Part shown: positions 9,103 through 62,481 of the stretch, in pieces
How positions within the stretch are numbered: position 1 is the first letter of the stretch
Layout of the letters: every line of letters starts with the position of its first letter
The notes under the pieces: generated by a model
The model's input: only the letters and a program-made list of their open reading frames with translations
The model's database searches: none
Told to the model about the DNA's origin: nothing
Program-made: the position numbers and the translations under genes
Origin: Polaromonas sp. JS666
GTDB taxonomy: Bacteria > Pseudomonadota > Gammaproteobacteria > Burkholderiales > Burkholderiaceae_C
DNA length: 64,000 bases
Assembly: GCF_000013865.1 (NCBI RefSeq)
Contig: NC_007948.1
Span: 1,302,001 to 1,366,000 of the forward strand
Reading direction: 5' to 3'

Positions 9103-9449
9103 CGGTTCCTCCTGATTGCTGAAAGGCGGCCCTAAAAAGCCGCGTGACAGCCACCATAGGACCGAATACGCCGGAATGCAAGTGCGACTGCACCTGGTGA
9201 CCGCACCTTGTCACCTTGTATATATGGCCTGCCATGGCCTGCCGCACCGCAGGCACTGGCGGATCAACGTGGTGGGTCAACATGGTGGGTCAACGTGGCG
9301 GGTCAACGTGGCGGGTCAACGTGGCGGGTCAACAGCACCGGGTAACTCACGCCGCCGCTCTCCGGAGCGGAGGTTTCAATCCAGCCCTGCCGCCCCAACC
9401 GGCGCGTGACCGTCAAGGGGGCAAGGAGCAGGTTGTTGGCACAAGGTCT
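9103..9449. promoter_or_regulatory. Upstream region of the oxidase operon
   Basis: An intergenic stretch of about 350 bp. Besides the 13-bp array it contains the inverted repeat GGTGAC-N8-GTCACC at 9196-9215, an AT-rich TATATA at 9217-9224 and a twice-repeated ATGGCCTGCC at 9225-9244. I looked for an FNR/ANR box (TTGAT-N4-ATCAA) and saw none. The promoter position is not resolved. Confidence 0.4.
9256..9333. repeat. Six tandem 13-bp repeats upstream of the oxidase operon
   Basis: Six head-to-tail copies of a 13-bp unit with consensus GTGGCGGGTCAAC. The last three copies (9295-9333) are identical, the second and third differ by one or two bases and the first is more degenerate. On the minus strand the unit reads GTTGACCCGCCAC. 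The array lies 150-230 bp upstream of the leader ORF, in the only likely promoter region of the oxidase operon. The period is not a multiple of three and no gene covers it. Confidence 0.85.
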
Positions 9450-17580: not shown

Positions 17581-17730
17581 ATGAACTCCGGATTCTTGGA
17601 GCAACAAGTGTCGCTGCGCCATCGCTGCTTGTAAAGAGTCATCTGGCCGGGCCACAAGGTTGGACATGCACGGCAAGAGTGGCTGCTACGGTCCCGTTGG
17701 GTCAGCCACTTGTGGTCTGTAAATGGCCGG

Positions 17731-17772
17731 TTTGATCCGTTTGATCCGTTTGATCCGTTTGATCCGTTTGAT
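17731..17772. repeat. 9-bp tandem repeat downstream of ftsY
   Basis: Four perfect head-to-tail copies of TTTGATCCG plus a partial fifth (TTTGAT), between the ftsY stop and the rhtB-like gene. It is noncoding and looks like a slippage-prone minisatellite. Confidence 0.85.
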
Positions 17773-46328: not shown

Positions 46329-46405
46329 GGGGCGTTAGCTCAGTTGGTTAGAGCAGAGGACTCATAATCCTTTGGTCGTTGGTTCAAGTCCAACACGCCC
46401 TACCA
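46329..46405 (+). tRNA. tRNA with CAT anticodon (tRNA-Ile2 or elongator Met)
   Basis: A 77-nt tRNA with encoded CCA. The acceptor is GGGGCGT/ACGCCCT, with a G-U first pair. The D-arm is GCTC-AGTTGGTTA-GAGC, the anticodon loop is CTCATAA within GAGGA/TCCTT, and the T-arm is GTTGG-TTCAAGT-CCAAC. A CAT anticodon is read as Met, or as Ile (AUA) after lysidine modification; the ACTCATAATC...TTGGTCG layout resembles E. coli tRNA-Ile2. Its last 50 nt form the attL core of the integrated element. Confidence 0.93.
46356..46405 (+). repeat. attL: tRNA 3'-half core of the element
   Basis: A 50-bp stretch, from the anticodon stem to CCA of the tRNA gene. It is repeated without mismatch in the same orientation at 57383-57432. 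The complete tRNA is kept on this side, as is usual for tRNA-integrating elements. Confidence 0.95.
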
Positions 46406-46430
46406 CCCAGAAGTCTTATAAACAAAGGAA

Positions 46431-46466
46431 AGCCTGCTATTCAATAGATAGCAGGCTTCTTTTTTT
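46431..46466 (+). terminator. Rho-independent terminator just inside attL
   Basis: A perfect 10-bp stem AGCCTGCTAT/ATAGCAGGCT with a 7-base loop, followed by TCTTTTTTT. It lies 26 bp after the tRNA, on the element side of attL. The element thus supplies the terminator now used by the tRNA gene. Confidence 0.9.
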
Positions 46467-46485
46467 CGACTGTCCTGGGTGCACT

Positions 46486-46504
46486 GGTGTCTGTAAGGTG
46501 TCTA
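46486..46504 (+). repeat. Integrase arm-type repeats, left
   Basis: GGTGTCTGTA followed directly by a partial copy (GGTGTCT). The same unit is repeated three times in tandem near attR (57214-57247), in the same orientation. Occurrence near both ends suggests integrase or excisionase arm sites. Confidence 0.5.
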
Positions 46505-46582
46505 TTGATCTATGGTCATGCGTGGACACAGGAAACCAGATACCATAGATTCCCCCTAGGATCACACGCACTGGAGGAAGCC

Positions 46583-46816
46583 ATGACTAGCGTCAGATGG
46601 GAGACCGTCACCGACGACGGTACCGCAGAGTTTCAGGTCCAATACGGTGGGAAGACAGCGAAGATCAAGCTTGAAGGACTGGACACGACGGGATGGCAGG
46701 AAGAACCCGCTCCACCGTGGACGGAGTTCTACCTGAAGTGCTTCAAGGAGCTGTTCGACGCGATCCAAGCCAAGGACACACACTGGACGGATCGCCACCC
46801 CGGCGGTAAAGGGTGA
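46583..46816 (+). CDS. Small hypothetical protein, element cargo
   Basis: A 77-residue acidic protein (TSVRWETVTDDGTAEFQVQY at its start) with no family I recognise. The start is fixed by GGAGG six bases upstream. It is the first gene inside attL and convergent with the zinc-ribbon gene, 6 bp apart. It may be an element accessory gene. Confidence 0.65.
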   Translation: MTSVRWETVTDDGTAEFQVQYGGKTAKIKLEGLDTTGWQEEPAPPWTEFYLKCFKELFDAIQAKDTHWTDRHPGGKG

Positions 46817-46822
46817 CCCCGG

Positions 46823-47146
46823 TCACCAGCGCGGCGTCAACGTTGGCTGCCAGCCTTGCACCCCGGCGTCGGGGAATAGCGCCAGCACTGCCTCACGTCG
46901 GCGCTCCAACTCATCCAGGCTGATGGCGTAGACCATGCCATAGCCGGCGCAGTGTGAACATTGGCTGAACGCGTCCGCCAGGCCGGTGCCGTCGCAGCGC
47001 GGGCAGGGGTCGGATACGTCGTTGCCGAGAATACGGCGCGTCTCGTCGAGGTAGAGGTACTTTTCCCTGATGCCGCAAAGCAGCATCCGGCGGGTGCGAA
47101 TGGCGAAGCCGCTGAAAGGCGTTGCACGGTCGGAATAGTGTTGCAT
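46823..47146 (-). CDS. Small DnaJ-type zinc-ribbon protein
   Basis: A 107-residue protein. The central part CPRCDGTGLADAFSQCSHCAGYG has two CxxC-G-x-G pairs, like half of the DnaJ cysteine-rich zinc domain. The flanks are charged, and the C-terminus contains LDELERRREAVLALF. Proteins of this shape are frequent in phages and islands; the role is unknown. ATG 47146 is chosen so that the gene starts outside the poorly conserved upstream stretch; no strong ribosome binding site is seen. Confidence 0.6.
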   Translation of the reverse strand: MQHYSDRATPFSGFAIRTRRMLLCGIREKYLYLDETRRILGNDVSDPCPRCDGTGLADAFSQCSHCAGYGMVYAISLDELERRREAVLALFPDAGVQGWQPTLTPRW

Positions 47147-47525
47147 GGCTGCACCCCCGTAGGTCCCCCCATCGTGCCAGCGGATCGGCCGGGCGGCAAG
47201 AGGTAGGCAGGGCGAGGCCGCTGACGACCCGTGCCGGAAACCACTGACCATTCCACGAAGTTATTCTGCTCAAGACTGAAGACGGAAGTAGCGGAATTAA
47301 AACTTCCTGCCCGATACCGGCCGGTCATTCGGGCTGTAATTGTTTTGGTCAGCCATGGAGCGACGATTTCGTACACTGGAGCCCCCGCATTCGACCGGAC
47401 CTTGGCTAATTCTCCCGAAGGCGGAGGTTGATCCCCCAAATGGGGATGCCGTTCACATTTTTGCGGTGAAGACAAGCAGCCCACTGTTAGAACAATCATT
47501 TAACAAAAATTCACGGAGGAACTGT
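47147..47525. other. Intergenic region before the membrane cargo gene
   Basis: About 380 bp between divergent genes, becoming visibly AT-richer toward its right end. It contains small palindromes (CCGGCCGG near 47320 and ATCCCC-N5-GGGGAT near 47430). It presumably holds promoters for both flanking genes; I cannot place them. Confidence 0.4.
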
Positions 47526-48135
47526 ATGAGCCACTGGATCGATAGAGTCCGTCACACTCCTTGCTCTAGCTGGTTTGATTTTTGTCGCCTTTTTGGTGGC
47601 GTTTCCCGGGGTAATTGGTTCGGGCTCTTCGGCTGACCGGGTTGGCCAGCAGAAGGTTCTTGAGCCTAAAGCTGATGTCGGGTTGCAAGGGAATGTCAAT
47701 GCCACTTCGGATAAGAAAAAAGAGGCGCAACCAGAATTCAAAGCAACTGCTGAAGTGGCGAGCAAACCACATACAGAAGCAGAGTTTTATCAAGGCCTTG
47801 CAACTAGAGTTTTCCTGTCCATAACCTTTGGCATCTTCGCAGCATACGCCGGACGACAAGCAAGTCGGTTTTTTGAGATGGAGCAAAAGAATAGAAAGTT
47901 GGCGCTTGAACTTGAAGCACTTGGCCCATTTATAGAGCCTTTAGATAAGTCGGATAGGGATAAGTTTAGAGTGCAAATTGGAGACCGCTCCTTTGGGGTG
48001 CCGGATCATGACGCGTCCAAGCCCAAAGAAGATGATCCGGTAACACTTGCTGGGTGGATCAAATCCAAAGATGGAATAGAGGCCATCACCAATCCGATAA
48101 AGGAGGTCTTGAAAGCTCTGAAGATAGGTAACTGA
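47526..48135 (+). pseudogene. Two-helix membrane protein, cargo; probable frameshift near 47550
   Basis: A well-placed GGAGGA and ATG at 47526 open the frame MSHWIDRVRH, which leads nowhere. The next frame carries the protein: from about 47551 it reads VTLLALAGLIFVAFLVAFPG (membrane helix), a polar Lys/Glu stretch, a second helix FLSITFGIFAAYAG and a charged tail with ALELEALGPFIEPLDK and FRVQIGDRSFG. The only in-frame start is a TTG at 47575 without a ribosome binding site. Either one base was gained or lost, or frameshifting occurs. The function is unknown; the composition is AT-richer than its neighbours. Confidence 0.55.
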
Positions 48136-48163
48136 ACCGTTCGGTGCAGCACCAGCGATGACG

Positions 48164-48739
48164 TTACAACAAATTGCGCCTGTGATGCGCTGCGAGACGA
48201 GCCAGGTAGCCGTCATGGGCCTTGCGCCTTGCGTCGATGACCTCGGGACGGGCCTGTGAGCGTCCCTGCTCGGCTGAGCCGCCGCGATAAATCTGCAGGG
48301 TCTCGGTTCGGGTTTCCTCGACGACTTCCTGGCCGCGCAGGTCGGGAATCGAATAGGTCGGGAACTCGTCCAGCGGCGGGAGTTCGGACGCAGGCTCAGG
48401 TTCGGGGGCTTGAGCAGGGGCGGCTTCGATGATGTCCACTGGCGCGGCTGAGCCGGCCTGTTGGCGAGCGATCGCTAGGACATATGAAATTCTCATTGCG
48501 ACGGCGCGCAAGTCATGGGGCTCGAACGGTGTGCTCTCGGCTTCCTCGGTCTCGCTGCGCGGTGGCGGCACCAGCCTCATCAAGTGCTTGCAGAACTCAT
48601 CCTCGTGCGCGCGGGCATAGGCAAGGAGCCAGCGGCGCCCGCCCAAGGCTTTATAGACGGCGAGCAGATCACCTTTCACCCGTTCCGTGACGGCGTTGGG
48701 TGTACCGACCTGCCGGCCGCCAGTCTTGACCCTGGTCAT
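48164..48739 (-). CDS. Putative terminase-small-subunit-like phage protein
   Basis: A 191-residue protein. The N-terminal VKTGGRQVGTPNAVTERVKG followed by GRRWLLAYARAHEDEFCKHL matches the layout of DUF5681/terminase-small-like phage proteins (GRPxGTPNKxT, then helices ending near LLxxLxP). The middle is Pro/Glu-rich and the C-terminus basic. The call rests on pattern memory, not a search. GGAGGG lies eight bases before ATG. It is the last gene of the long minus-strand block. Confidence 0.5.
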   Translation of the reverse strand: MTRVKTGGRQVGTPNAVTERVKGDLLAVYKALGGRRWLLAYARAHEDEFCKHLMRLVPPPRSETEEAESTPFEPHDLRAVAMRISYVLAIARQQAGSAAPVDIIEAAPAQAPEPEPASELPPLDEFPTYSIPDLRGQEVVEETRTETLQIYRGGSAEQGRSQARPEVIDARRKAHDGYLARLAAHHRRNLL

Positions 48740-48742
48740 CGT

Positions 48743-48949
48743 TCAACCCTCCGGGGGCGGGGCATCCGTGTTGACAAAAACGGATGTGAGGTTGCCGCTG
48801 TCGTCGTAGCGAAAGCACACCCGGGTGTGAAGGGTCCGGGGCAGCTGATTGAACCCTGGCACCAAGCACGTCAGGGCCTCGATCAGCGCGCGAGCCTCTA
48901 GGAAACAGCCTTCCTGCGTCGAAAATTCGTCGCCTTTGTAGTAAAGCAT
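48743..48949 (-). CDS. Small hypothetical protein of the element
   Basis: A 68-residue protein with no recognised domain (LYYKGDEFSTQEGCFLEARA at its start). GGAGG is placed six bases before ATG. It lies 3 bp after the previous gene's stop and 3 bp before the next gene, so it belongs to the packed minus-strand block. Confidence 0.6.
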   Translation of the reverse strand: MLYYKGDEFSTQEGCFLEARALIEALTCLVPGFNQLPRTLHTRVCFRYDDSGNLTSVFVNTDAPPPEG

Positions 48950-48952
48950 TTT

Positions 48953-49384
48953 TTACCTCCGATTAATAGGCGCCGGGCCGTAGCTCGGAAGCCGATGGCT
49001 GCCGTCATCCGGCACCCAGCGCGTCATGAGCCCGCTGGCGTCCCTTTGGATTAGCAGACGCTGACCGTTGATGACGATTGCGCGCGCAAGCCCCGCGCCA
49101 TCCCTTTGGATTGAAACCTCCGGCGCCTTTAACGGAGGGGCTGCGCGGCGCTCCAGGGCGCGTAGGCGGCGTTCGAGGTCGGGTGAAGGGGAATGCACAG
49201 GGCGTAGTGGTTGCGCGGCGCGTAGGGCCGCCTGATGGCCGGTGAGGGCCTTCGCGACCTCGGCCTCGACCACCTTCGCGATTTCTTTCCGCAGCGCACC
49301 GGCCAGGCCATCGGTCAGGCCATCGGGCGAAGGCCTGGCCTGCTTGGCGACGAGCCGGCGTTCAAGGATTTGAATCACGCCCAT
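48953..49384 (-). CDS. Hypothetical phage-like protein with internal duplication
   Basis: A 143-residue protein. An Ala/Glu/Lys-rich helical half is followed by two copies of a short motif, VSIQRDGAGLARAIVI and LLIQRDASGLMTRWV, joined by NGQR. The DNA shows the same duplication as repeated CCCTTTGGATT. No family is assigned. It is tightly packed with its neighbours, so co-expression is likely. Confidence 0.6.
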   Translation of the reverse strand: MGVIQILERRLVAKQARPSPDGLTDGLAGALRKEIAKVVEAEVAKALTGHQAALRAAQPLRPVHSPSPDLERRLRALERRAAPPLKAPEVSIQRDGAGLARAIVINGQRLLIQRDASGLMTRWVPDDGSHRLPSYGPAPINRR

Positions 49385-49386
49385 GA

Positions 49387-49707
49387 TTAGCTCGACGCCA
49401 CGCTAACAGTCGCACTGATGGGGCCGGCAAACCCGGTGCTCGTCGAAAGTGACGAGACCCGGTGCCAGGTAACCGCGCTCGAACCCGCAGTGCTGACGCT
49501 GGCGTGGACCAACAGGTCGCCAACCCGCAGGCCAATGCACGCGCCGTGTGCCGTGGAGAGGCTGCCCCGGCCGGCACCAGTGAAAAAATTTGGCGCCTCG
49601 ATCTCGCTGTGGGAATGCGTGCTCTGATACGCGAACACGCCACCGCCGCCCGAAAGATCAAACGACATGATCTGGCGTGCAGGGTTGGATGAACTTGAAT
49701 AAGCCAT
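49387..49707 (-). CDS. Hypothetical small phage-like structural protein
   Basis: A 106-residue Ser/Gly/Ala-rich protein with alternating hydrophobic and polar residues (LRVGDLLVHASVSTAGSSAV), suggesting a beta-rich fold. It could be a head-decoration or accessory virion protein; this is only inference from composition and position. GGAGA precedes the ATG by six bases. Confidence 0.55.
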   Translation of the reverse strand: MAYSSSSNPARQIMSFDLSGGGGVFAYQSTHSHSEIEAPNFFTGAGRGSLSTAHGACIGLRVGDLLVHASVSTAGSSAVTWHRVSSLSTSTGFAGPISATVSVASS

Positions 49708-49718
49708 GGTGAATCTCC

Positions 49719-50636
49719 TTATGAATCGTCACGGAGGTGCAGCAGCGCTAAATAACGTGCCTGCATCAGGGGGCTGCGGTTGTAACGGGCGCGGTCAGTG
49801 CGCAGAGCGTGTTCTATTTCGGCAATCTCCAGTGCGAGATTGCCACCAGTGGGCATCGGGCCGACCGCTTCGGCATGCAGGGCCTGTATCACGCCCGCAT
49901 CATTCGCGGCGAGTTTTCCGCCAGGCAGCACTGCGTTTTCGAGCTTCTGGCGCGCCGCTGCAGGCAGGTTTCTCACGTACTGACGCACCAGTGCCAGGCG
50001 GGGCTCAAGCTCATGCCCCCAGGCGACGCGTAAAACGTCCATCCCGTCTTCCCGGTCGCTTTCGCTCCGTTCATCAATCTGAGCGAGTTCCGAATCGCTG
50101 AAGGTATCGGTAGTGCGCTGCTGCTGTTGCTGCGACTGCTGCTGATACACCCGGGCAGAAAGGGCGTGATACCAATGAAGAATTGCATATGCGCTCGACT
50201 GCGGCAGGCCGCGCTGCGCCATGGCGTTGGCAAAAAAAGTCACGAGCGCGTGATCTTCTTTTAGGAACGCCAAGTTGCGCAGGTCATAGTTATGGGTTGC
50301 GACCACGTTGCGCGGCGCCGGGGTCATGGCCGCCATCTGCTTGAATAAATCGATTGCGAACCGCGTGTGTGCGGCAGGGATAGCACGCGACATATCGCGC
50401 GCAAAGGTTTCAGTGATCTGCACCATGGCCTGCTGCACCGCCTGCGGCGACGTGCCGGGCGATAGCTGCTGCCCGAAGACAGTCGGCGCGGCGGTGTGGC
50501 CGTGTTCGGCGCGGTCGTCGAGAAGGTCGAGGGCAGAGCCTGCGGGCGCACTTGGCAACAGCGGTCCTGCTGGCGCGTATGGCACCAACTCGCCACTACC
50601 TTGAGAGGCCGGCAGCATGTCGTCGTAATCGTTCAT
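49719..50636 (-). CDS. Putative head-assembly/scaffold-like protein
   Basis: A 305-residue acidic protein. The N-terminal ~80 residues are Pro/Ala-rich and disordered. The helical middle contains VYQQQSQQQQQ. The C-terminus GNLALEIAEIEHALRTDRAR followed by MQARYLALLHLRD resembles the end of phage scaffolding/capsid-assembly proteins (EIEkxMxxDxxxYxxxxxxQaRYleLL). A satellite could use such a protein to remodel helper capsids. The resemblance was judged by eye. It overlaps the upstream gene by 4 bp (ATGA). Confidence 0.5.
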   Translation of the reverse strand: MNDYDDMLPASQGSGELVPYAPAGPLLPSAPAGSALDLLDDRAEHGHTAAPTVFGQQLSPGTSPQAVQQAMVQITETFARDMSRAIPAAHTRFAIDLFKQMAAMTPAPRNVVATHNYDLRNLAFLKEDHALVTFFANAMAQRGLPQSSAYAILHWYHALSARVYQQQSQQQQQRTTDTFSDSELAQIDERSESDREDGMDVLRVAWGHELEPRLALVRQYVRNLPAAARQKLENAVLPGGKLAANDAGVIQALHAEAVGPMPTGGNLALEIAEIEHALRTDRARYNRSPLMQARYLALLHLRDDS

Positions 50637-51100
50637 GATGCGGGCACCTCTTCAATACGTCCTACTTGAGACTGCAGGCGACGCCACGCCCTGCGGCAAC
50701 GCGAATGAATGAAGCTGCCAGACACCAGCTGGCCGTATGCATCAACGTCTGACTCAAGCTCGGGCACCAGGCTGGCGGCCTCGCGCAGCAGGCAGTAGCG
50801 GCACACCCCAGCGCGGGGAGGGTGCTGCAGCCTTAAACGCGCAGCCCCAAGGCCGCCCGGTTGTTGGTCCACCAGTCGCACCAAACCGTCCGAGCCAAAC
50901 CACAAAGCAACGTCCCGCTCGAACAGCGCCTGCTGAACAAGGGCGGAGCGTAGCGCGGTTTCGACTTCGGCCGCACGCCGCTCGGCTTTCATCGAAACCG
51001 CGATCTGGCGGGCCAGCGCATCGACGGGGGTGCGCAAAGCGGCGTGCGCGATGGCGGTCGCCTGCGCGTGTCGCATGACCTGGTCGTTGAAGGGGCTCAT
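50633..51100 (-). CDS. Hypothetical protein with cysteine pair
   Basis: A 155-residue mostly helical protein (AALRTPVDALARQIAVSMKA). The C-terminal part CRYCLLREAASL with a later cysteine (HSRCRRAW) could bind a metal. It has 4-bp start/stop overlaps with both neighbours, so it is in the middle of a tightly coupled set of three genes. The function is unknown. Confidence 0.65.
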   Translation of the reverse strand: MSPFNDQVMRHAQATAIAHAALRTPVDALARQIAVSMKAERRAAEVETALRSALVQQALFERDVALWFGSDGLVRLVDQQPGGLGAARLRLQHPPRAGVCRYCLLREAASLVPELESDVDAYGQLVSGSFIHSRCRRAWRRLQSQVGRIEEVPAS

Positions 51101-51573
51101 GATCGCAGGGCCTCAATGATCCACATGCACGCCTCACCTTTGGTTTGGAATTCTGCGCGCAGCACTTCGCTGCCGCGCAGGATTCCCCACAATCGTTCGG
51201 GGCCTAAGAATTCGCAGGTATGGCCGGCCGGCAAGGCGTCCACCGTGTGCGGATGCAGTGGCGGCAGATCGATTTTTCGCAACAGGACAAGTACGGCATA
51301 ATTTTGCCCGCAGTCGCGGACCAGCAGCTCGGCCCACCACGAGCTATCTTCGGGCTGAACCTCGATCAGATCGCGGCGACTAAGGCGGTCCGCCACCAGG
51401 GGCCAGAAGTCAGCGCACTGCAGGGCTTCGACGGTGGTGTCGTTTGTCACGATGGCCGTCCAGCTATTGCGTTTTGCTTCGGCCAGGGCGAGCTGCGAGG
51501 GCTTGAGCTGCGGAAAGCGCGGACGCGGCTTGATTTGCAGCTCAACCGGGGCATCGATGGTGGCGGTTTTCAT
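51097..51573 (-). CDS. Hypothetical phage-head-neighbourhood protein
   Basis: A 158-residue soluble protein. RNSWTAIVTNDTTVEALQCA, FWPLVADRLSRRDLIEV and SSWWAELLVRDCGQNYAVLV form a pattern (W-x-x-I-V, FW..VA..L...D.I.V, W.AEL.V) that I associate with a small protein next to head genes in podovirus-like phages. The role is unknown. GAGGAG lies eight bases before ATG. Confidence 0.6.
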   Translation of the reverse strand: MKTATIDAPVELQIKPRPRFPQLKPSQLALAEAKRNSWTAIVTNDTTVEALQCADFWPLVADRLSRRDLIEVQPEDSSWWAELLVRDCGQNYAVLVLLRKIDLPPLHPHTVDALPAGHTCEFLGPERLWGILRGSEVLRAEFQTKGEACMWIIEALRS

Positions 51574-51625
51574 GCGACTAACTCCTCAAAAATAATTGTT
51601 AGTCTGAAGATGCGGGGACATGGTG

Positions 51626-51991
51626 TCAAAGTTTCTGGTCCAGAAGTTCGGTGTCCAAAATGTCCTGGATCAACTCCACGCTGGGCAGTTTCTTGCCGAG
51701 CCCGTAATGCCCTTCCTTGGTGGCGATCTGGGTTTCGATCCACCCCGCACGCTCTTCGGGCGGCAATACACCCAGGGGCGCGGCGATGTCGGCCGCCGCG
51801 TCCTTGACCGCCTCTACCACCCTGGCCCTGCGCGCCGCGCGCGCCCTGGCGCCGCGCTCATAGTCGGCGGCGCGGCGGCGATTCAGCTCAGCGTTGCCGG
51901 CGTAGAGCCAGGCCCGCGCCTCGGGTGACACGGCTTCGAGCTCGCGCTCGATTTGGGCTGAGCTGGGGAGGGTTGATTCGGGCTTTTTCAT
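51626..51991 (-). CDS. Small hypothetical protein of the element
   Basis: A 121-residue charged helical protein with an Arg/Ala-rich centre (RRAADYERGARARAARRARV) and the C-terminus KKLPSVELIQDILDTELLDQ. AAGGAA precedes the ATG. It starts a transcription unit: a tandem GGTACC motif lies just upstream and a 245-bp gap separates it from the RHH gene. The function is unknown. Confidence 0.6.
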   Translation of the reverse strand: MKKPESTLPSSAQIERELEAVSPEARAWLYAGNAELNRRRAADYERGARARAARRARVVEAVKDAAADIAAPLGVLPPEERAGWIETQIATKEGHYGLGKKLPSVELIQDILDTELLDQKL

Positions 51992-52011
51992 GGTTCATTT
52001 CCTTCACAACA

Positions 52012-52028
52012 GGTACCCTATAGGTACC
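52012..52028. promoter_or_regulatory. GGTACC tandem motif, candidate RHH operator
   Basis: GGTACC-CTATA-GGTACC: two palindromic hexamers 11 bp apart, in an AT-rich spot 20 bp before the 121-residue gene. Ribbon-helix-helix repressors often bind such short repeats one helical turn apart, and an RHH protein is encoded next door. Confidence 0.45.
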
Positions 52029-52236
52029 AAGAAACCGCCCCCAGAACTTCCACAGCCGCCATAGCCGCGCCATTGCTGGGTTTTCGGCACAGCGACAAAA
52101 GGACTATGAATCCTTTGGCAGAGAGAAAACATCACAAAATGCTTCTATTTTTGTAGCAATTTCGGGGGCAAATCGGGCGGGAAGCCTTGATTGGCGCGGA
52201 GTTGTTGCGTGGGAATTTTTCTACTGTCGTCGCGCG

Positions 52237-52545
52237 TCATGACTTCGCTCGCTGGGTTAAGACCTCACAAAGCAACCTTTCCAGCAGCGCGGCCTGGGTT
52301 TCGCCTGGCTGCCGTTCCGCCATCAGCCGCTGATAAACGGTATCCGGCAGCCAGGTCTTGAGTTGCCGATACCCCGCCGCTTTGCGCCGCCGCTGAAAGT
52401 CTCTTTGCCTTTTTGCGCTATGCGCCGGGGGCTTGGTGGTTGCCACCCGCACCCAGGAGCCGCTCGCCAGCAGCCGGGCCGCGTCGTCAGGCGACAAGAC
52501 CTCGCGCACGTTCTGGCGTGGTACCAGCAGAGTCGGCTTTTTCAT
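52237..52545 (-). CDS. Ribbon-helix-helix-like DNA-binding protein
   Basis: A 102-residue basic protein. After an N-terminal arm it has a very basic stretch (HSAKRQRDFQRRRKAAGYRQ), then LKTWLPDTVYQRLMAERQPGETQAALLERLL. That pattern, a short strand and two helices, fits the Arc/MetJ-type RHH fold. It probably regulates the element's genes or replication. GGAG lies before the ATG. The promoter region contains one arm of the large inverted repeat. Confidence 0.7.
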   Translation of the reverse strand: MKKPTLLVPRQNVREVLSPDDAARLLASGSWVRVATTKPPAHSAKRQRDFQRRRKAAGYRQLKTWLPDTVYQRLMAERQPGETQAALLERLLCEVLTQRAKS

Positions 52546-52578
52546 GGGGCTCCTTTTCACATGTTTGGTCTGCTCCGC

Positions 52579-52683
52579 TGATGCAGGCTGATGCATGCAT
52601 TTCTCCATTGCAATCTGTATATATATTTATCTTTATTTGAATGTGAACCTGCAATGGTTAGATGCATGCATCAGCCTGCATCA
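52579..52683. repeat. Long inverted repeat around an AT-rich core (candidate origin or operator)
   Basis: Perfect 22-bp arms lie at 52579-52600 and 52662-52683, each built from repeated GATGCA/TGCATGCAT units. Weaker symmetry continues inward (ATTGCA near 52607 and TGCAAT near 52650). The 61-bp centre is AT-rich, with TATATATATTTAT. It lies between the primase-helicase stop codon, which falls in the right arm, and the RHH gene. This is where a P4-like replication origin or a main operator would be expected. Confidence 0.85.
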
Positions 52684-54996
52684 CCCTCCCGCAGCGGGGC
52701 GCAAACGATTAAAAAATCCCATTTCGCCATTTCCCTGCCAGCTGTCAGCGAGTCCAACGCCCCTGTAAAAACGGCGCTGCCGGCCCTCTACACGCGGGTG
52801 GTGCGTTTGTAGATCCGGCAGCGCCGCACGCAGGTCGCGGCCGAACGTTGCTTCAGTGCCGTGGTGCTCCCAGCCGTGGGCTTGGCACCAGAGACGCCAC
52901 GCCTGAAAAAGCCGGCCACGTTCGACCTCGGCGCCGGGTGTCACGACACAGGATTCCCGCAAAAATGCGCCGACTGGCGAACCCAAGTCTTCCAGCTCGC
53001 GGACCAGTTCCGACGCCGCAGCGGGTTGGCGAAATTGCCCCCGTTGGCACAGTCGTTCCAGACCGTTTAACGACCAATTCAAAATTGCAGGCAGCTCGCG
53101 CAGAAGCCGATCCGCCAGGCCCAAGTCCTCGGAGCCCAGCCATGACCGCGTGAGCCGCAATACGATGAACCGAGACGCCAAAGCGCCGCTGCTGTCGGCG
53201 ATGCGGGGTAACTCGTTCGTGAGCAGCACAAAGCGCACGCCGAGCCGGCCCGTCCAGGCGCTGATGTGTTTCCGATCGACCGTCAACGTGTCCTCGCCCG
53301 ATACTGCTAAAAGCCTCTCGGCCAGGGCCTGCTGGTCGACCCTGCCGCTCAGGCGCGCGTCCGAGATAACCGCGAGCCGTTTTTCGATCAAAGGCTGCAG
53401 GCCGAAATTGGTGCGCAGCGAGTCGAGCGTAGGGCCGACGCAATTGGCCTCGCCGAGCAGCGCGCGCATCACCTTTATAGCCGTCCCCTTGCCTGCGCGC
53501 TTCGGTCCGACCACCATCAAAATTTTCTGACGCGAGCTGTCGGCGGTCAGCAGATAGCCGAAGAACTCCTGCAGTGTTTCGCGGGACTCGGCGTCATCCG
53601 GCCACAGCTCGCGCAGGAACCGCAGCCAGGCCATCGGCGGTTCGGCATTCGCGTCGTAAGCGAACGGCAATCCCGTGGTTGTGAACAGCTGCGCGTCATG
53701 TGGCCGCAGGGTGCGGCTCGGCAGGTGCATGATGCCGTTTGCCATCACCAGCAGGTCGCGCGCATCGGGGTCGCCCTCGCGCTCATTGAGCCAGCACGGC
53801 GGCGCGTGATGGCTCGCCAGGTGTGCCGTGGCACGCAGCGCGGCCATCACGTCGCCGACACGTGCGCGGTTCGGGCCGAACGGCTCGGCTCCGTTCTTGC
53901 CCAAATATTGCGCGCCTCCGAGATAGGCGTAGATCACCGCTTCGAGGTCGGCGGGCGCCATCGAACGCCATGCGCCCGCGCGCCAGCCGTAGAAGTCGCC
54001 GCGCCAGTGCAGCAGCAAAGCGGCGCCGTCCTCGGCGGTGAATTTTTCCGCGACGAGCCGATGGGCGGTCCAGGCCGGCTCGCTGCGCGAGAGGGTGCGC
54101 TGCGCACGCAGCTTTGCCAGCAGTGGCCCAGTGTAATCGTGGTCGCCCCGGCCATCCTGCGCGGCCTTCCCGTGAGCGAAGGCCCGCAATGCCGTGGCGA
54201 TCTCGTGATCATTGAAGCCGCGCATCACCATGAGCGAAGCCAGGCTCATGTCGAGGCCGGACCGGCTCGCATCGTTGAGCCCTCCGGTTTCGCCGTCCCA
54301 GCGCGTACGCAGCTTGGGGTCCGCGTGCAGCAGCTCGGCGAAACGCGGTGGTAAGTCGTCGCGCTGCGCGCACGGCACTGCGTGGGGTTCCTTGCGGCCT
54401 TTCGCGGCCAGTTGCTGGCGCCACGCACTGAGCGGCGCATCAGGGATCGGCTGAATGTTCGCGATGTCGCCGATCCACGCATAGGGACGTCCCGTGTCTG
54501 GGTGGGTCGATGGCGGCAGGACGTCTTGCCATGTCGTGCCATTGCCGCTGGCGCAGCGCAGCTCGCCCCAGGGCAGGGTGCACGACGGCAACGGCTGCGG
54601 CAGGCGGTATAGCAGCTTAGCCCGCCCCGGCCGCCCGGAGTGGATACGCACAGCGCCGGGTGCGTTCAGCAGGGCGTCGAGGTCAATGCCGCGCTCAGCG
54701 AACCAAGGCCGGGCGAGTGACATGTTGTCGATATCAAGGGCGCAAGTCGGCGGATTGCTGTAGGCGTGGGCCAAACCGATGTTGCACGACCCGTTCAGCT
54801 GCGCCTGCGCTTGTTCACTTGTGGTGATGGCGTTTTCGCGAAGGTTCCAGCCCGCCGCGCGCGGGCCTTTCAGGCCGTGCGGGATTGGGACCAGCGCAAA
54901 GCCGGCGGCCAGGTAGGCGGCAATTAAGTCATCGCGCGCTGCCATTTGCGCGGCAGGCGCAACTGCGCTATCATTTTCGCAGTTCGTTTCGTTCAT
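52681..54996 (-). CDS. Bifunctional primase-polymerase / SF3 (P4-type) helicase
   Basis: A 771-residue replication protein. The N-terminal Prim-Pol domain (residues ~20-195) shows GFALVPIPHGLKGPRAAGW, the metal site ALDIDN (Asp88, Asp90) and RIHSGRPGRAKLLYR. A D5/DUF5906-like linker follows (~310-470). The C-terminal superfamily 3 helicase has Walker A VVGPKRAGKGTAIKV (497-505), AVISDARLSG and LLTNELPRIADSSGALASRF. It resembles P4 alpha-type proteins that prime and unwind at their own origin. The start at 54996 follows GGGAGAGC. Confidence 0.92.
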   Translation of the reverse strand: MNETNCENDSAVAPAAQMAARDDLIAAYLAAGFALVPIPHGLKGPRAAGWNLRENAITTSEQAQAQLNGSCNIGLAHAYSNPPTCALDIDNMSLARPWFAERGIDLDALLNAPGAVRIHSGRPGRAKLLYRLPQPLPSCTLPWGELRCASGNGTTWQDVLPPSTHPDTGRPYAWIGDIANIQPIPDAPLSAWRQQLAAKGRKEPHAVPCAQRDDLPPRFAELLHADPKLRTRWDGETGGLNDASRSGLDMSLASLMVMRGFNDHEIATALRAFAHGKAAQDGRGDHDYTGPLLAKLRAQRTLSRSEPAWTAHRLVAEKFTAEDGAALLLHWRGDFYGWRAGAWRSMAPADLEAVIYAYLGGAQYLGKNGAEPFGPNRARVGDVMAALRATAHLASHHAPPCWLNEREGDPDARDLLVMANGIMHLPSRTLRPHDAQLFTTTGLPFAYDANAEPPMAWLRFLRELWPDDAESRETLQEFFGYLLTADSSRQKILMVVGPKRAGKGTAIKVMRALLGEANCVGPTLDSLRTNFGLQPLIEKRLAVISDARLSGRVDQQALAERLLAVSGEDTLTVDRKHISAWTGRLGVRFVLLTNELPRIADSSGALASRFIVLRLTRSWLGSEDLGLADRLLRELPAILNWSLNGLERLCQRGQFRQPAAASELVRELEDLGSPVGAFLRESCVVTPGAEVERGRLFQAWRLWCQAHGWEHHGTEATFGRDLRAALPDLQTHHPRVEGRQRRFYRGVGLADSWQGNGEMGFFNRLRPAAGG

Positions 54997-55054
54997 GACG
55001 AGCTCTCCCGGCCCTCTTGCGCCACCCTCAGGGTGCAAGGGGCTTTTCTTTGAC

Positions 55055-55324
55055 TTATTCGTCGTCCTTCGGCCACGCGATGCCTTCGCGCCTGACGCGC
55101 TCAAGCTCTTCGATCGGAATGCGCCTATCGCTTCCGACGAACACATAGCGCAGCAGGCCTTTTTTCATCAGTTCGTAAACCAGCGCGCGCGACACGTCGG
55201 CCGCCTCCGCAAAAGCGTTGGGACACAAAAGCCTGCGATCGGGCTTCTTGTCGAGCGCAGCCGCGACGGCGCGTTCGACGGCCGCCGTCAAGTCAGCAAT
55301 AGAAGGGGTGGGGAAAGTTTCCAT
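55055..55324 (-). CDS. AlpA/Xis-like helix-turn-helix protein
   Basis: An 89-residue DNA-binding protein. The C-terminal half has a MerR/excisionase-type winged helix, ALVYELMKKGLLRYVFVGSD followed by RRIPIEELERVRR. Such proteins act as excisionases or activators of int or replication genes in P4-like elements. It lies between the integrase-linked 118-residue gene and the primase gene. ATG 55324 gives a natural length. Confidence 0.8.
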   Translation of the reverse strand: METFPTPSIADLTAAVERAVAAALDKKPDRRLLCPNAFAEAADVSRALVYELMKKGLLRYVFVGSDRRIPIEELERVRREGIAWPKDDE

Positions 55325-55439
55325 TTCGTCAACTCCATGTTTACCAAAACATGGGCTGATCATCCACCCGCACGCGCCAAAAACGCTAATTGGCAGCGCC
55401 GCACAAATGCGCATTTGTGTCGGTGCCGTCGGTTGGGAC

Positions 55440-55796
55440 TTAGTGTTTCGCCGGGGCCTTCTGTTTCTCGAAGTCGCGCTCGGCCTGTCGCTCGGAACCG
55501 CCGTACAGGCGCCTGATCAGTTCGACGACTTCCTTCTTCGTGAAACCGGCCTCGCAGAGTGCCTTGACATAGTCGAGCCGCGCAGAGGGCGCGACCCGCC
55601 CACGCTTGCCCTCGCCGAGTATCTGGAGCACTTCGAGCAGTTCGCGGCGGAATGCTTCATCCGCCGCTGCCTCGTCCACCAGCTCGGCGCGCAGCCGCCG
55701 CCGCTTTTCCTTCAGCCCCTCCAGGAACGCGTCAACGCGCTCGGCGTCGCTCGGCTCAGGCTCGGTGTCGAGCAATGTTTTCTTGACGGGCTTCAT
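55440..55796 (-). CDS. Charged helical protein following the integrase
   Basis: A 118-residue, highly charged, predicted all-helical protein (LEGLKEKRRRLRAELVDEAA, EAGFTKKEVVELIRRLYGGS). No family is assigned. It begins 3 bp after the integrase stop, so it is cotranscribed with int and may be an accessory of recombination or regulation. Confidence 0.65.
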   Translation of the reverse strand: MKPVKKTLLDTEPEPSDAERVDAFLEGLKEKRRRLRAELVDEAAADEAFRRELLEVLQILGEGKRGRVAPSARLDYVKALCEAGFTKKEVVELIRRLYGGSERQAERDFEKQKAPAKH

Positions 55797-55799
55797 GGC

Positions 55800-57173
55800 T
55801 CACCCCCTCCGCAGCGGCACGACCTTGCCCGGCGCCTCGCCCTTCGCAATCGCATCGAGCTTTCGCGCCCAGGCTTTCAGCGTGCGCTGCTTCTCGGGCA
55901 TGTAGTCGTAGCGGTCGTAGTGCTTTTGCTGAACACCGCTGAGGCCGTGGCTCAGCAGTTGGGCGCGCGTGTCGCGTGACACGCCCATGCGGGCCAGCAT
56001 CGTCTCGCATGTCCTGCGCAGATCGCACATCTGGAACGGTGCACGTGCCTTCTTCGCTTTCACCATGGCCGTGCTGATTTCGTGGACCCGCTTGCTCAAT
56101 GTCTCGACGCGCACCGGCACCTTGCCCCGGCTGCTGATCAGGTACTTATGGTCGGCGTTCGCCTGCATCAGGCGCTCGACGATTGCCAGGGCGGGGTCGG
56201 TCAGCGGGAGCACATGCAGCCGTGGCTGCAGACGTTTCCCCTTGGGGTCGAGCAGCGTGACAGCAGGGCCATCCGGATCAAACTGCGCGGGCTTGAGCCG
56301 CAGCAGTTGTGCCAGGCGTTGCCCGCCCAGGTAAAGCGTGAGCCTGATCGCGTCGGTGGCAAGGCCCGGCCGCTCGTCGAGCGCCTTCAGGAAGACGCGC
56401 AGCTCGTCCTCGTTCAGCGCCCGCTCGCGCTCCCGATTGAACTGTCTGAGCGACTTCGCCGGCACCAGTGCGGCCGGATTCATCTTGAGGGCAAAGCCGT
56501 GCAGCGATGGATGGATTGTCGGGTCGCCTTCGGCTTGCAAGCCCGCTGTGAATGCTGCGGAAAGATAACTGCGCAGTTTCGCGGCCGTGCGTCCCTTACC
56601 CTGGTTGATCAACCCGGCCAGGGTGGCGCTCACGTCTTGCTGCACGACTTCCGACGCGCGCTTTGCGGTGAGTTGCGGATGTGCCTCGAACACGTGAAGC
56701 TTGAACAGGTTGCCCACTTCCTTGGCCGACATCTTGCCCTGTCGCTCCAGGTGCTGCGTGTAGCCCTTGAGCAGCGCCTGCAGCGAACCGGCCGTAGCCT
56801 GTTTTTCATCTTCCCTGCGCTTTGCGGCTGCGGCTTCGATCAGTGCCCGCTGCGCAGCGCGCTCGTGTGCCAGATGGCTGTGCAGATTGCGCACGCCGCT
56901 CTGGTAAAGCCTTGACAGCTCTCCCGCGCTCGCGCGCGCGGCGCCGAGCGTGAGGCCGGCGCGACCGCTCTCGTCGTAAGTGCCAAGGTCGAGCTGGTGC
57001 TGTGTGCCTTCACACGAGTAGCGGAAGTAGAAGAGGACATGACCACCCGGTCGCGCACGCAGCCGCAGCCTGCCTTCGCCACGCGGGCGCGCCTCGGTGA
57101 GCCACACATCGCACTCGTCCTTCTTCGCCTTGCGGATCGCTGCATCGACCGTCTTGATCGTCCAGGTTGTCAT
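55800..57173 (-). CDS. int: Tyrosine recombinase (integrase)
   Basis: A 457-residue P4-type integrase with the N-terminal arm-binding DUF4102-like domain (residues 1-100), a core-binding domain (~130-230) and the catalytic domain. Catalytic residues seen are Arg286 (GGQRLAQLL), Arg386 (CDLRRTCETML), His409 (LLSHGLSGV) and Tyr419 (KHYDRYDY). At the usual first-histidine position (H-x-x-R) it has Cys383. It reads away from attR, which is 210 bp upstream, and should mediate insertion at the tRNA 3' end. Confidence 0.94.
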   Translation of the reverse strand: MTTWTIKTVDAAIRKAKKDECDVWLTEARPRGEGRLRLRARPGGHVLFYFRYSCEGTQHQLDLGTYDESGRAGLTLGAARASAGELSRLYQSGVRNLHSHLAHERAAQRALIEAAAAKRREDEKQATAGSLQALLKGYTQHLERQGKMSAKEVGNLFKLHVFEAHPQLTAKRASEVVQQDVSATLAGLINQGKGRTAAKLRSYLSAAFTAGLQAEGDPTIHPSLHGFALKMNPAALVPAKSLRQFNRERERALNEDELRVFLKALDERPGLATDAIRLTLYLGGQRLAQLLRLKPAQFDPDGPAVTLLDPKGKRLQPRLHVLPLTDPALAIVERLMQANADHKYLISSRGKVPVRVETLSKRVHEISTAMVKAKKARAPFQMCDLRRTCETMLARMGVSRDTRAQLLSHGLSGVQQKHYDRYDYMPEKQRTLKAWARKLDAIAKGEAPGKVVPLRRG

Positions 57174-57213
57174 GACCTTCCCCTTCGTGTCTGTTCGCAG
57201 TCCTTTGGTTGCG

Positions 57214-57247
57214 CTGGTGTCTGTCTGGTGTCTGTATGGTGTCTGTA
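57214..57247 (+). repeat. Integrase arm-type repeats, right
   Basis: Three tandem copies of an ~11-bp unit, CTGGTGTCTGT(A), between int and attR. A further GTGTCTGT lies at 57187-57194. The same unit is found just inside attL. This is consistent with arm sites bound by the integrase N-terminal domain, or with autoregulation of int. Confidence 0.55.
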
Positions 57248-57382
57248 TGACCGCTGGTCACAGATGGACAGACGTCGACAGGCACAGACAAAGGATACGC
57301 CTTCAGGCGTTGATTTTCAAGGGTTTTTTCAACAGGCGGCGACAGGGGAAAACAGAGGCAAACACGGCTGGACAGCGTATTT

Positions 57383-57432
57383 GAGGACTCATAATCCTTT
57401 GGTCGTTGGTTCAAGTCCAACACGCCCTACCA
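57383..57432 (+). repeat. attR: 50-bp copy of the tRNA 3' half
   Basis: Identical to 46356-46405. Only the 3' part of the tRNA is present, so it is not a functional tRNA gene but the right attachment site. Chromosomal sequence resumes after it. Confidence 0.95.
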
Positions 57433-57536: not shown

Positions 57537-58397
57537 CTACTTCGCCCAGGAGGGGGTAAAACCCGAGCGCGAGGTGCGGGCGAATATCACGGAGGGACTC
57601 TCGTTCACATCCACCACGAACGGTTCCACAAACCTTCGGCCGCGCGACAGGAAGACCAGTTCGAAGTTCCGTCTGATGGACGGTGAAACATGGGGCTCTT
57701 TGCGTTGCCCCACGGACTTGCAATCGTAGGTATACGCCAACCCAAAGGGCGTCCATTCCTCGGGAACCGCCCTGGCGCCCCGGTTGATGCAAACCTTGCT
57801 TTCTTCCCATTCGATACTTTCCAGCTTGTCGTCGACAAGAATGCTGGAGATATAACTTTCCTGAAGCGACAGCCGGTTCCCCACCGTCTCCAAAGTCCGC
57901 AGATTGCCGTTGATGGAAAAGTCGGTAAGCACATGGGCATAGAGCGGAGGTTTGTCCTCGTCGGTCGTGGCGACAGCCACGCGAAGGAGGCCTGCCAGCG
58001 CCGTCAGTTCCTGCTGCTTCCCGGACGTGCTGTCATGTCGTGTCGTCGCTACCGCGCAAAGATTGAAGCCGCCGGAGGTCACCGTGCATTCGTACTCCCG
58101 TGAACGCTTGGCGGACATTGACACCATGGTCAGGACACCTTCAAGGGTTCCGCGGTAGCCCATCTTTGGACGGATGCCCGAAAGCTTCGTTGAATCCAGA
58201 AGCTTTCTGGAGACTTGTTCTGACAACACAGGTTTGAGTTCTTCAGGCAACGCAAAGGTACTTGCGGCCTCGCGCTGCGCAAAGGCCGGAGTGCTCAAGA
58301 AGGCTGACGCCGTCCATAAGGTTACCGCCGAGGCGGAAAAGATTGTGAGAGCAGCGAATGCCTTTAGCGGCGCCTCCAACCGGCTGACGTGACGCAT
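57537..58397 (-). CDS. Secreted hypothetical protein
   Basis: A 286-residue protein with a signal peptide (ALTIFSASAVTLWTASAFLS, cleavage near AFA). The rest is soluble with four scattered cysteines (ECTVTSGGFNLCAVAT, SKVCINRGARA, TYDCKSVG), possibly two disulphides in the periplasm. I recognise no family. It lies alone between attR and a shorter tRNA-like remnant at 58560, so it may be cargo of an older insertion. Confidence 0.7.
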   Translation of the reverse strand: MRHVSRLEAPLKAFAALTIFSASAVTLWTASAFLSTPAFAQREAASTFALPEELKPVLSEQVSRKLLDSTKLSGIRPKMGYRGTLEGVLTMVSMSAKRSREYECTVTSGGFNLCAVATTRHDSTSGKQQELTALAGLLRVAVATTDEDKPPLYAHVLTDFSINGNLRTLETVGNRLSLQESYISSILVDDKLESIEWEESKVCINRGARAVPEEWTPFGLAYTYDCKSVGQRKEPHVSPSIRRNFELVFLSRGRRFVEPFVVDVNESPSVIFARTSRSGFTPSWAK

Positions 58398-61195: not shown

Positions 61196-61209
61196 ACCGG
61201 TGGATATTG

Positions 61210-61540
61210 CCCCCACGCTTGTCACTGCGTGTACTGCGCTGCCCCCCGAGGGGGCCGCTGCGCCTGCGGTCTGGCAAAGCCAGTCCCGCGGCCCCTGCTG
61301 GGGTGGAGAGCCCCCACGGTTGCTCACTGCGTGTAGCTCCCTGCTCCCCGAGGGGGCCGCTGCGCCTGCGGTCTGGCAAAGCCAGTCCCGCGGCCCCTGC
61401 TGGGGTGGAGAGCCCCCACGGTTGCTCACTGCGTGTAGCTCCCTGCCCCCCGAGGGGGCTGCTGCGCCTGCGGTCTGGCAAAGCCAGTCCCGCGGCTCCT
61501 GCTGGGGTGGAGAGTCCCCACGCTCGCTCGCTGCGTATGG
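61210..61540 (+). repeat. 102-bp tandem repeat (three copies and a bit) at the gspK 5' end
   Basis: Three successive units of exactly 102 bp; the marker CGAGGGGG recurs at 61247, 61349 and 61451. Copies 1 and 2 share nearly all bases, and the third has several changes. Each unit is itself GC-rich with inverted-repeat character (CCCCGAGGGGG). As 102 is a multiple of three, the frame toward gspK stays open through the array. It is not CRISPR: the units abut without spacers. Confidence 0.92.
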
Positions 61541-62481
61541 CTCTCGAGTCGGGTGCGGCGCTCCTGAGTGCCATGCTCACCGTGACACTGGTGGCTACCT
61601 TTGCCGCGGCGGCGCTCTGGCAGCAGTGGCGCAGTGTGGAAGTGGAGGCGGCTGAGCGTGCCCGGGTGCAGTCGGCATGGATTCTGACGGGCGCCCTGGA
61701 CTGGACGCGCCTGATCCTGCGTGAGGATGCCCGTGCGGGCGGAGCGGACCACCTGGCTGAGCCGTGGGCCGTGCCCTTGAATGAGGCGCGGCTGTCGAGC
61801 TTTCTGGCCATTGACAAGAATGCCAGCGAGACCGAGCGCGAAGCGTTTCTTTCCGGCCAGGTGAGCGACTTGCAGGGCAGGCTCAACGTGATCAACCTGG
61901 TTGCAGGCAACGCGATTTCGGAACCCGCCATGGTCAGCTTTGGCCGGCTGTTCGAGTTGCTGGGTTTGCCAGTCCAGCAGTTGAATACTCTGGCCAGCCA
62001 ACTGCTGCAGGCCTCGCAAGCCGGCGCTCAGGCGCCTACCCAGCTGACGCCCCTGATGCCCCAGCGGGTCGAGCAACTGGTCTGGCTGGGGCTTGCCCCG
62101 GAGACGCTTGCCGCGCTGGAACCCTACATCACGCTGCTGCCCGTGCGTACCCCTGTCAACCTCAATACCGCCAGCGCCGAAGTTATTTATGCCAGTACAG
62201 CCGGGCTGGAGATGGCTGAAGCGCAAAAGCTGGTGGCCGCGCGTGCGCGCAGCCACTTTCGAACGCTGGCCGATGCCAATCAGCAACACAGTGGCCCAAG
62301 CGGGGCGTTCAATGACGGCCAGCACGCGGTGGCCTCCCGGTTTTTTGAAGTACGCGGCAGATTGCGGCTCGACCAGACGGAGGTCCAGGAGCGTTCAGTG
62401 CTGCAGCGCGACGGCCTGACGGTGCGCACGCTCCGGCGCGACCGGGGCGTTGTCACGGTGACAGACGTGGCCCGCCGCTGA
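61537..62481 (+). CDS. gspK: Type II secretion minor pseudopilin GspK
   Basis: A 314-residue (from ATG 61537) large minor pseudopilin. The hydrophobic N-terminal helix GAALLSAMLTVTLVATFAAA is preceded by only MALES, lacking the usual basic leader. The body has the GspK landmarks VSDLQGRLNVINLVAG and VRTPVNLNTASAEVIYAS. The start codon falls in the last partial copy of the 102-bp repeat. The frame is open from TTG 61192 through the repeats, which would add a 115-residue Arg/Pro/Ala-rich leader. Its length from 61537 fits the family. Confidence 0.85.
   Translation: MALESGAALLSAMLTVTLVATFAAAALWQQWRSVEVEAAERARVQSAWILTGALDWTRLILREDARAGGADHLAEPWAVPLNEARLSSFLAIDKNASETEREAFLSGQVSDLQGRLNVINLVAGNAISEPAMVSFGRLFELLGLPVQQLNTLASQLLQASQAGAQAPTQLTPLMPQRVEQLVWLGLAPETLAALEPYITLLPVRTPVNLNTASAEVIYASTAGLEMAEAQKLVAARARSHFRTLADANQQHSGPSGAFNDGQHAVASRFFEVRGRLRLDQTEVQERSVLQRDGLTVRTLRRDRGVVTVTDVARR

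Follow-up and report, generated by a model that had tools for sequence, protein, structure and literature searches.

A satellite-like element in a tRNA-Met gene of Polaromonas sp. JS666 encodes a distant relative of phage scaffold-position proteins

Results

Integration site and front module

A 64,000-nt stretch of the Polaromonas sp. JS666 genome (contig NC_007948.1, positions 1,302,001 to 1,366,000; hereafter the window) contains a compact element integrated in the tRNA-Met gene that adjoins hrcA. A repeat search found two identical 50-nt direct repeats, which give the element a start-to-start period of 11,027 bp; the intact tRNA-Met contains the left one as its 3' part. Between the repeats lie a replication protein and an intact, tightly spaced late operon that includes a distant homologue of phage scaffold-position proteins, and no virion core is recognisable. 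Read leftwards from the right attachment (att) repeat, attR, the front module has the order integrase, 118-amino-acid (aa) protein, AlpA-like protein, primase-polymerase (PrimPol)/D5 helicase.

46329..46405, forward strand: tRNA-Met (CAT), target gene, intact (ARAGORN and Rfam)
46356..46405, forward strand: att repeat, left copy (attL), 50-nt perfect direct repeat
46485..46494, forward strand: candidate integrase arm-type site, left (TGGTGTCTGT; motif search)
52237..52608, reverse strand: 123-aa protein, possible copy-control repressor; weak matches only
52579..52683, no strand: inverted repeat, 34-nt arms, 91%, AT-rich spacer; DNA fold z -7.26
52681..55146, reverse strand: PrimPol-D5 helicase, 821 aa (771 aa from 54996); four family models above cut-off
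55055..55414, reverse strand: AlpA/excisionase-like helix-turn-helix (HTH) protein, 119 aa; matches below curated cut-offs
55440..55796, reverse strand: 118-aa protein, 3-nt gap behind the integrase gene, in the place of PICMI iolg/icg; no family match
55800..57173, reverse strand: tyrosine integrase, 457 aa, adjoining attR; PF00589 40 bits (cut-off 27.1), phrog_1 E 1.3e-31
57215..57249, forward strand: candidate arm-type sites, right, three copies at 11-bp spacing (motif search)
57383..57432, forward strand: att repeat, right copy (attR), 50-nt perfect direct repeat

The primase-helicase matches PF09250 (54.5 bits), PF19263 (49.7 bits), PF08706 (32.6 bits) and TIGR01613 (148.8 bits), all above cut-off, and its likelier start is Met51 at 54996 (771 aa, with GGGAGAG upstream) rather than the start of the 821-aa open reading frame (ORF) at 55146. 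The 119-aa protein scores 22.9 bits against HTH_17 (cut-off 27) and 23 bits against TIGR01764 'excise' (cut-off 28.8), and matches phrog_66 at E 8.4e-4. The matches of the 123-aa protein to UrfF (E 0.0022), a RepA regulator (E 0.041), DUF7302 (E 2.9e-4) and phrog_748 (E 4.4e-4) are all weak; the last is partial, and its 'head-tail connector' label was not used. The inverted repeat between the primase and 123-aa genes is a candidate origin, operator or copy-control site, judging from its fold and position. An initial annotation of the window had named perfect 50-bp att repeats in a tRNA gene, a tyrosine integrase at attR and a Prim-Pol/SF3 helicase, and these were confirmed. Its AlpA/Xis-like protein is of the right kind but stays below the curated cut-offs, and its ribbon-helix-helix assignment of the 123-aa protein was borne out only in that plasmid repressor and RepA-regulator models match below cut-off.

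The motif TGGTGTCTGT occurs once just inside attL (46485) and three times inside attR (57215, 57226 and 57237, at 11-bp spacing), and has one match per strand in the remaining 53 kb of the window. We read these repeats as candidate arm-type sites of the integrase. The anatomy of borders and front module suggests an island that is probably able to excise and copy itself.

Searches of the genus returned hrcA in 13/13 genomes, the own genome counted. A tRNA-Met stands beside hrcA in six of the 11 foreign hrcA loci returned, which are short, and the sequence 3' of the tRNA varies among these six. In one of them (L080), a hairpin-like stretch resembles by eye the window sequence beyond attR, as if the element had displaced this stretch from the tRNA; no more direct empty site was seen among these loci. 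Beyond attR the flank may likewise vary, and a 286-aa ORF right of attR (57537-58397) was found in the own genome only, among 16 searched.

Several observations concern the 360-kb contig C2 of the host genome. A 46-bp stretch identical to the 3' end of tRNA-Met lies at G000:C2:196489-196534 (L044, about 9,990), where ARAGORN finds no tRNA in the surrounding 20-kb stretch; it is possibly the footprint of another element with a tRNA-Met target. A second integrase, 36-37% identical to that of the element, is encoded near insertion-sequence-like DNA (G000:C2:310851-312152; L045:10834-12189), and transposon-like DNA on the same contig gives matches of 78-87% to plasmids from Polaromonas, Delftia, Acidovorax and Cupriavidus, in keeping with a host from the Burkholderiales.

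The late operon and its scaffold-position homologue

Seven genes running from 51573 down to 48164 form the late operon. The gaps between them are -4, -4, 11, 2, 3 and 3 nt, and all frames are open.

51097..51573, reverse strand: 158-aa protein, late gene 1; phrog_26742 (function unknown) E 3.9e-17; relatives P0015-P0017
50633..51100, reverse strand: 155-aa protein, late gene 2; 4-nt overlaps with its neighbours; no family match
49719..50636, reverse strand: 305-aa scaffold homologue, late gene 3; profile homology to phrog_3742
49387..49707, reverse strand: 106-aa protein, late gene 4; no match found
48953..49384, reverse strand: 143-aa protein, late gene 5; no family match
48743..48949, reverse strand: 68-aa protein, late gene 6; no family match
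48164..48739, reverse strand: 191-aa protein, late gene 7; seven relatives at 39-55%; no family match

The 305-aa protein is a distant but well-supported relative of phrog_3742, newly recognised here through its relatives P0005 and P0002. A word-based search of 5.8 billion proteins, a method that misses remote relatives, gave four relatives at E 1e-3 (P0002-P0005). The shorter P0005 matches the 305-aa protein at E 1.2e-11 (30% identity over 57%) and phrog_3742 at E 6.8e-12, and the other three match phrog_3742 at E 3.2e-7 (P0002), 1.2e-5 (P0003) and 0.075 (P0004). When the profile of the 305-aa family (five rows) was compared with that of nine proteins in the scaffold position of prophages, the result was 85.5%, with E 5.7e-6 for one comparison. 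The nine-protein profile also ranks the 305-aa protein first among the 279 ORFs of the window (E 0.025, next 0.39) and first among the element's 114 six-frame ORFs with at least 40 aa (E 0.01, next 2.5). In the reverse direction, the L063 protein ranks at the top of the 637 ORFs in the prophage loci (E 0.0098, next 0.98).

The meaning of this kinship was read from the prophage loci. phrog_3742 was matched in 12 of 250 genomes sampled from the order, and nine of the 12 loci were read (L060-L067, L069). In all nine, the gene directly downstream of the phrog_3742 gene has the size of a capsid-protein gene. A portal-sized gene lies upstream in eight, with one to four small genes between; none was seen in L063. 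One capsid profile could be built from eight of the nine downstream proteins and finds eight ORFs in these loci, and the L060 protein looks different from the others by eye. L064, the sole locus named by PHROGs, has a terminase large subunit, a head-tail adaptor, a major head protein and a tail protein, together with a DNA primase gene upstream of the head module; the element has a primase gene too. These phrog_3742/phrog_458 prophages, podovirus-type in our reading, share a homologous scaffold-position protein with the element, whereas they carry portal and capsid genes and the element has no recognisable ones. A tblastn search at E 0.01 found no match in the phrog_3742 loci for any element protein queried except the primase, and none of the listed primase matches (at least 120 bits) lies in these loci. 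Two further phrog_3742 matches, in L053 (G110) and L054 (G053), contain internal stops (one and two TAA, respectively) and are perhaps decayed prophage copies.

The other late proteins were less informative. The 158-aa protein and its three relatives all match the phage cluster phrog_26742 (best E 1.5e-17). A phage search with P0017 that allowed E up to 10 gave 11 records, the best at E 1; these, and the matches of the 158-aa profile in the PDB (7on6, E 0.0011; YcgR and another, 0.35 and weaker), were taken as chance. A phage structural role for the 106-aa protein, suggested by a likeness, was not borne out: Pfam, PHROGs, NCBIfam, phage records, viral contigs and PDB sequences gave no match. 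Nor was a small-terminase role for the 191-aa protein, suggested by its N-terminal pattern, with no match for it or for its relative P0013 against phages.

No recognisable virion core

Among the 16 element proteins, no terminase, portal, capsid or tail family was matched, apart from the phrog_748 match noted above. Profiles of the large terminase, the portal, the major capsid protein and two tail proteins, built from the prophages, reached at best E 0.14 in the 114 six-frame ORFs. Each of these profiles found 5-8 ORFs at E<1e-20 in its own source prophage loci, so that the control is built in. The same ORF set holds no capsid gene beside the 305-aa gene, unlike all nine prophage loci. The initial annotation had seen a satellite-like integrated element without portal, capsid, large terminase or tail genes, which agrees with these results, and had spoken of head-like genes, for which at least one gene, that of the 305-aa protein, now qualifies by distant profile homology to scaffold-position proteins.

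Rarity and relatives

In overlapping genome samples, with a limited number of candidates scored per genome, no match outside the own genome was found for the 305-aa protein in 299 genomes of the order, for the 191-aa protein in 298 genomes of the family, or for the 158-aa protein in 273 genomes of the class and 388 of the family. With the phrog_26742 model, the 249 genomes of the order searched held a single additional match, a weak one (G209, E 2.0e-4; context L068), which was taken as chance; its context reads as what we take to be a housekeeping methyltransferase.

Relatives were found among individual proteins, mostly metagenomic: four for the 305-aa, seven for the 191-aa (39-55%) and three for the 158-aa protein (69-76%). 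Most carry the sole source tag 'lgn', which we take to denote Logan assemblies; P0011 and P0016 are also tagged jgi and ena. The 191-aa protein of the window itself is listed on three contigs. P0002, a 305-aa relative, and P0008, a 191-aa relative, come from contigs of 6,051 bp each, and P0011, a 191-aa relative, and P0016, a 158-aa relative, from contigs of 219,513 bp each. The contig sizes within each pair are equal, and therefore these late genes very probably sit together elsewhere too. P0004 and P0017 come from contigs of 7,754 bp and 7,726 bp, respectively.

Scans of contigs, phages and plasmids used patterns from single sequences, which are insensitive. They confirmed no relative of the primase or the 191-aa protein (A2) in genome contigs; of the primase, A2, A1, the 158-aa protein (A3), the 106-aa protein or the integrase in viral contigs; of the 158-aa protein, P0005 or the 305-aa protein in phages; or of P0016 in plasmids. 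The nearest primase in the family sample belongs to another island with an integrase and a large primase (L041:8365-13220, in the family relative G381) and is 37-39% identical to that of the element over about half of its length (C-terminal). This island was rejected as kin of the element, since no other element protein matches it at E 0.01.

Remaining genes and repeats

In addition to the integrase, AlpA-like and primase-helicase genes, twelve ORFs of the element were counted as genes, and its coding fraction is 0.89. Genes outside the front module and the late operon are the following.

46487..46816, forward strand: 109-aa ORF, possible cargo; no family match
46823..47251, reverse strand: 142-aa ORF with a CxxCxGxG-type stretch, possible regulator or cargo; weak matches, all below cut-off
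47575..48135, forward strand: 186-aa ORF, possible cargo; no family match
51626..51991, reverse strand: 121-aa protein (ORF)

Outside the element, a tandem array at 61209-61543 (102-bp unit, 3.3 copies) lies in the 5' part of an ORF that stands between what we take to be type II secretion-like genes. Short perfect or near-perfect tandem repeats occur at 17730-17772 (period 9, 4.8 copies) and 9257-9333 (period 13, 5.9 copies).

Comparison with known satellites

The element fits a satellite in the broad sense, with site-specific integration, its own integrase and replication gene, and no complete virion set. Its front end is closest in plan to the PICMI of Vibrionaceae. According to the portions of PMC10803314 used here, both have the order integrase, a gene overlapping or touching it, alpA and primase, and both have PF00589, a PF12728-type HTH (here below cut-off), DUF5906, flanking direct repeats and a compact genome. 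In that source the integrase gene is overlapped by another gene in 21 of 35 PICMI subfamilies and touched by one in four; PICMI excision needs alpA, int and iolg, and prim is involved in replication. Integrase, AlpA (PF05930 or PF12728) and a DUF5906 primase, the PICMI combination, were found here in that order, with PF12728 at 22.9 against 27 bits. The insertion next to fis was not found, the element lying in tRNA-Met beside hrcA, nor was DUF3987 in the primase (PF13148 is absent from the Pfam matches of the element). As far as the same portions go, the element further differs in size (11 kb against 6.1 kb for PICMI115), in having Prim-Pol instead of DUF3987, in its host group, and in a late operon with a scaffold homologue, where the typical PICMI encodes no capsid remodelling.

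P4-like satellites share an integrase, an AlpA-like protein, a primase-helicase and a size of about 11 kb with the element (PMC8628076, in part). The P4 markers named there, Psu (PF07455), delta (PF04606) and epsilon (PF10554), are absent from the Pfam matches of the 16 proteins at E 0.1. The P4 alpha model PF03288 matches at E 0.03, below cut-off, the TIGR01613 'P4 family' primase model matches above cut-off, and the HTH is of the HTH_17 rather than the PF05930 kind. P4 uses an external scaffold, Sid, in the portion of the literature used. The cf-PICI resemble the element in being satellites with head-module genes, but the capsid protein, protease, portal, connectors and terminase by which the consulted part of PMC10690885 defines them were not found in it. 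The plan of PICI proper is int and regulators, replication, then packaging or interference genes (cpmAB, terS, rpp); no PICI-type name turned up in the general family scans, in which no dedicated PICI model was run. PLE belong to V. cholerae, with ICP1 as helper, and have about 18 kb (host range from PMC10803314, in part), against 11.0 kb for the element.

For the late operon, the nearest parallel is with staphylococcal islands. The SaPI protein CpmB and the scaffold of the helper compete for the capsid protein, and the size of the capsid changes as a result (PMC5644958); Rcm has been proposed to act like CpmB (PMC12409344), both in the sections of these papers drawn on here. In both cases, on the same sections, the satellite encodes a relative or mimic of a phage scaffold and no capsid gene; the parallel is one of working principle. 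CpmB is much smaller than 305 aa, and SaPIs have Gram-positive hosts and another genome plan. The open-licence literature on satellites in connection with Burkholderia, Comamonadaceae or scaffolds gave, among the matches listed, no description of such an element.

Discussion

We lean, by a little more than an even chance, towards the reading that the element is an integrated phage satellite that redirects the particle assembly of a helper phage through its scaffold homologue. The course of events that we infer comprises excision, episomal replication, helper dependence, scaffold competition and packaging. The integrase and the AlpA-like protein, possibly joined by the 118-aa protein, would excise the element from tRNA-Met at the 50-bp att sites, assisted by the arm-type repeats, and the PrimPol-D5 protein would replicate it as an episome, with the 123-aa protein and the inverted repeat likely serving as copy control or origin. 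The late operon would come into use during the activity of a helper phage. The 305-aa scaffold homologue would then compete with the scaffold of the helper for binding to the helper's major capsid protein and steer assembly to capsids that suit an 11-kb genome, and other late proteins may adjust or redirect packaging. By analogy, a satellite scaffold relative in an operon without a capsid gene would most simply work like CpmB.

Several points weigh against this reading. On its own, the 305-aa protein reaches no better than E 0.0077 against phrog_3742, and P0004 no better than 0.075; in the reverse search only one of the nine scaffold-position proteins (L063) stands out, four others lying at E 3.9-6.2. 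The term 'scaffold' rests on position and sequence pattern, because phrog_3742 has no function label and the L064 scaffold-position gene matches phrog_458 ('protease') at 5e-58, better than phrog_3742. Just one of the seven late proteins has an assigned function. No helper phage came to light, because the host genome gave neither a phrog_3742 match, although the model at the same threshold also misses the element's own 305-aa protein, nor a match to a prophage-type portal profile, in a search without positive control; a resident helper may nevertheless be present.

The main rival, which we consider rather unlikely, is a trimmed prophage remnant, in which a temperate phage lost its large terminase, portal, capsid and tail genes and kept the integrase, the replication genes and some of the head module. 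Such an origin would suit a 305-aa protein from a phage head module and a 158-aa protein from a phage cluster, as well as the L064 prophage, where a primase gene and a head module stand side by side. No complete relative is readable, and by size arithmetic the 6,051-bp contig has just room for portal, capsid and large terminase genes beside the two known ones. Trimming would nevertheless need several separate, precise deletions, whereas the late genes are tightly coupled, have open frames and leave almost no gaps, and the perfect att repeats and arm sites have been kept. The identities of 39-76% among late-protein relatives of similar length (P0005 being shorter) also suggest long maintenance. 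A search for relatives that carry this gene set within a complete prophage, the case that the initial annotation had named as decisive for a remnant, found none but reached few relatives.

Less probable still is an integrative plasmid-like or defence island that puts phage-derived genes to another use, for example an unpackaged decoy scaffold that poisons phage assembly. Interference of this kind requires no packaging gene, the 123-aa protein weakly resembles plasmid copy repressors, and such PrimPol-D5 proteins also occur on plasmids, with matches in 328 plasmid records, of which not one covers 80% of the query. Set against this, PADLOC found no defence family in the nine element proteins scanned, the family matches of the 16 proteins include no relaxase or partition family, and an operon of seven late genes exceeds the needs of a decoy. 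Finally, a small virus that needs no helper and builds an unrecognised capsid from one uncharacterised late protein could draw on the six proteins without assigned function and on the capsid partner that a scaffold homologue implies, but it is very improbable, given that neither the family scans of the 16 proteins nor the profiles in the 114 ORFs detected a packaging ATPase or portal and that, apart from the scaffold homologue, the late proteins are of only 68-191 aa.

The element may represent an undescribed satellite family, a more tentative proposal to which we give somewhat less than an even chance. Such a family would combine a PICMI-like front end for excision and replication with a remodelling operon taken over from a temperate phage's head module, in which the scaffold gene and perhaps other head accessory genes were kept and no capsid gene, and it would impose its own scaffold on the helper capsid protein. 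The initial suggestion that no described satellite family fits holds for P4 and PICMI by published markers and for cf-PICI by described content. The accompanying idea of a new family gains from the existence of related proteins, mostly metagenomic, but neither a second complete element nor a clear match in the sampled genomes was found.

Internal scaffold competition that shrinks the helper capsid is documented in staphylococcal islands for CpmB and proposed for Rcm (PMC5644958 and PMC12409344, in the sections used). If our reading is true, the Polaromonas element would be an independent case, in which an unrelated element carries a recognisable phage-scaffold relative and no capsid gene, and it would suggest that such remodellers originate by capture of a phage scaffold gene.

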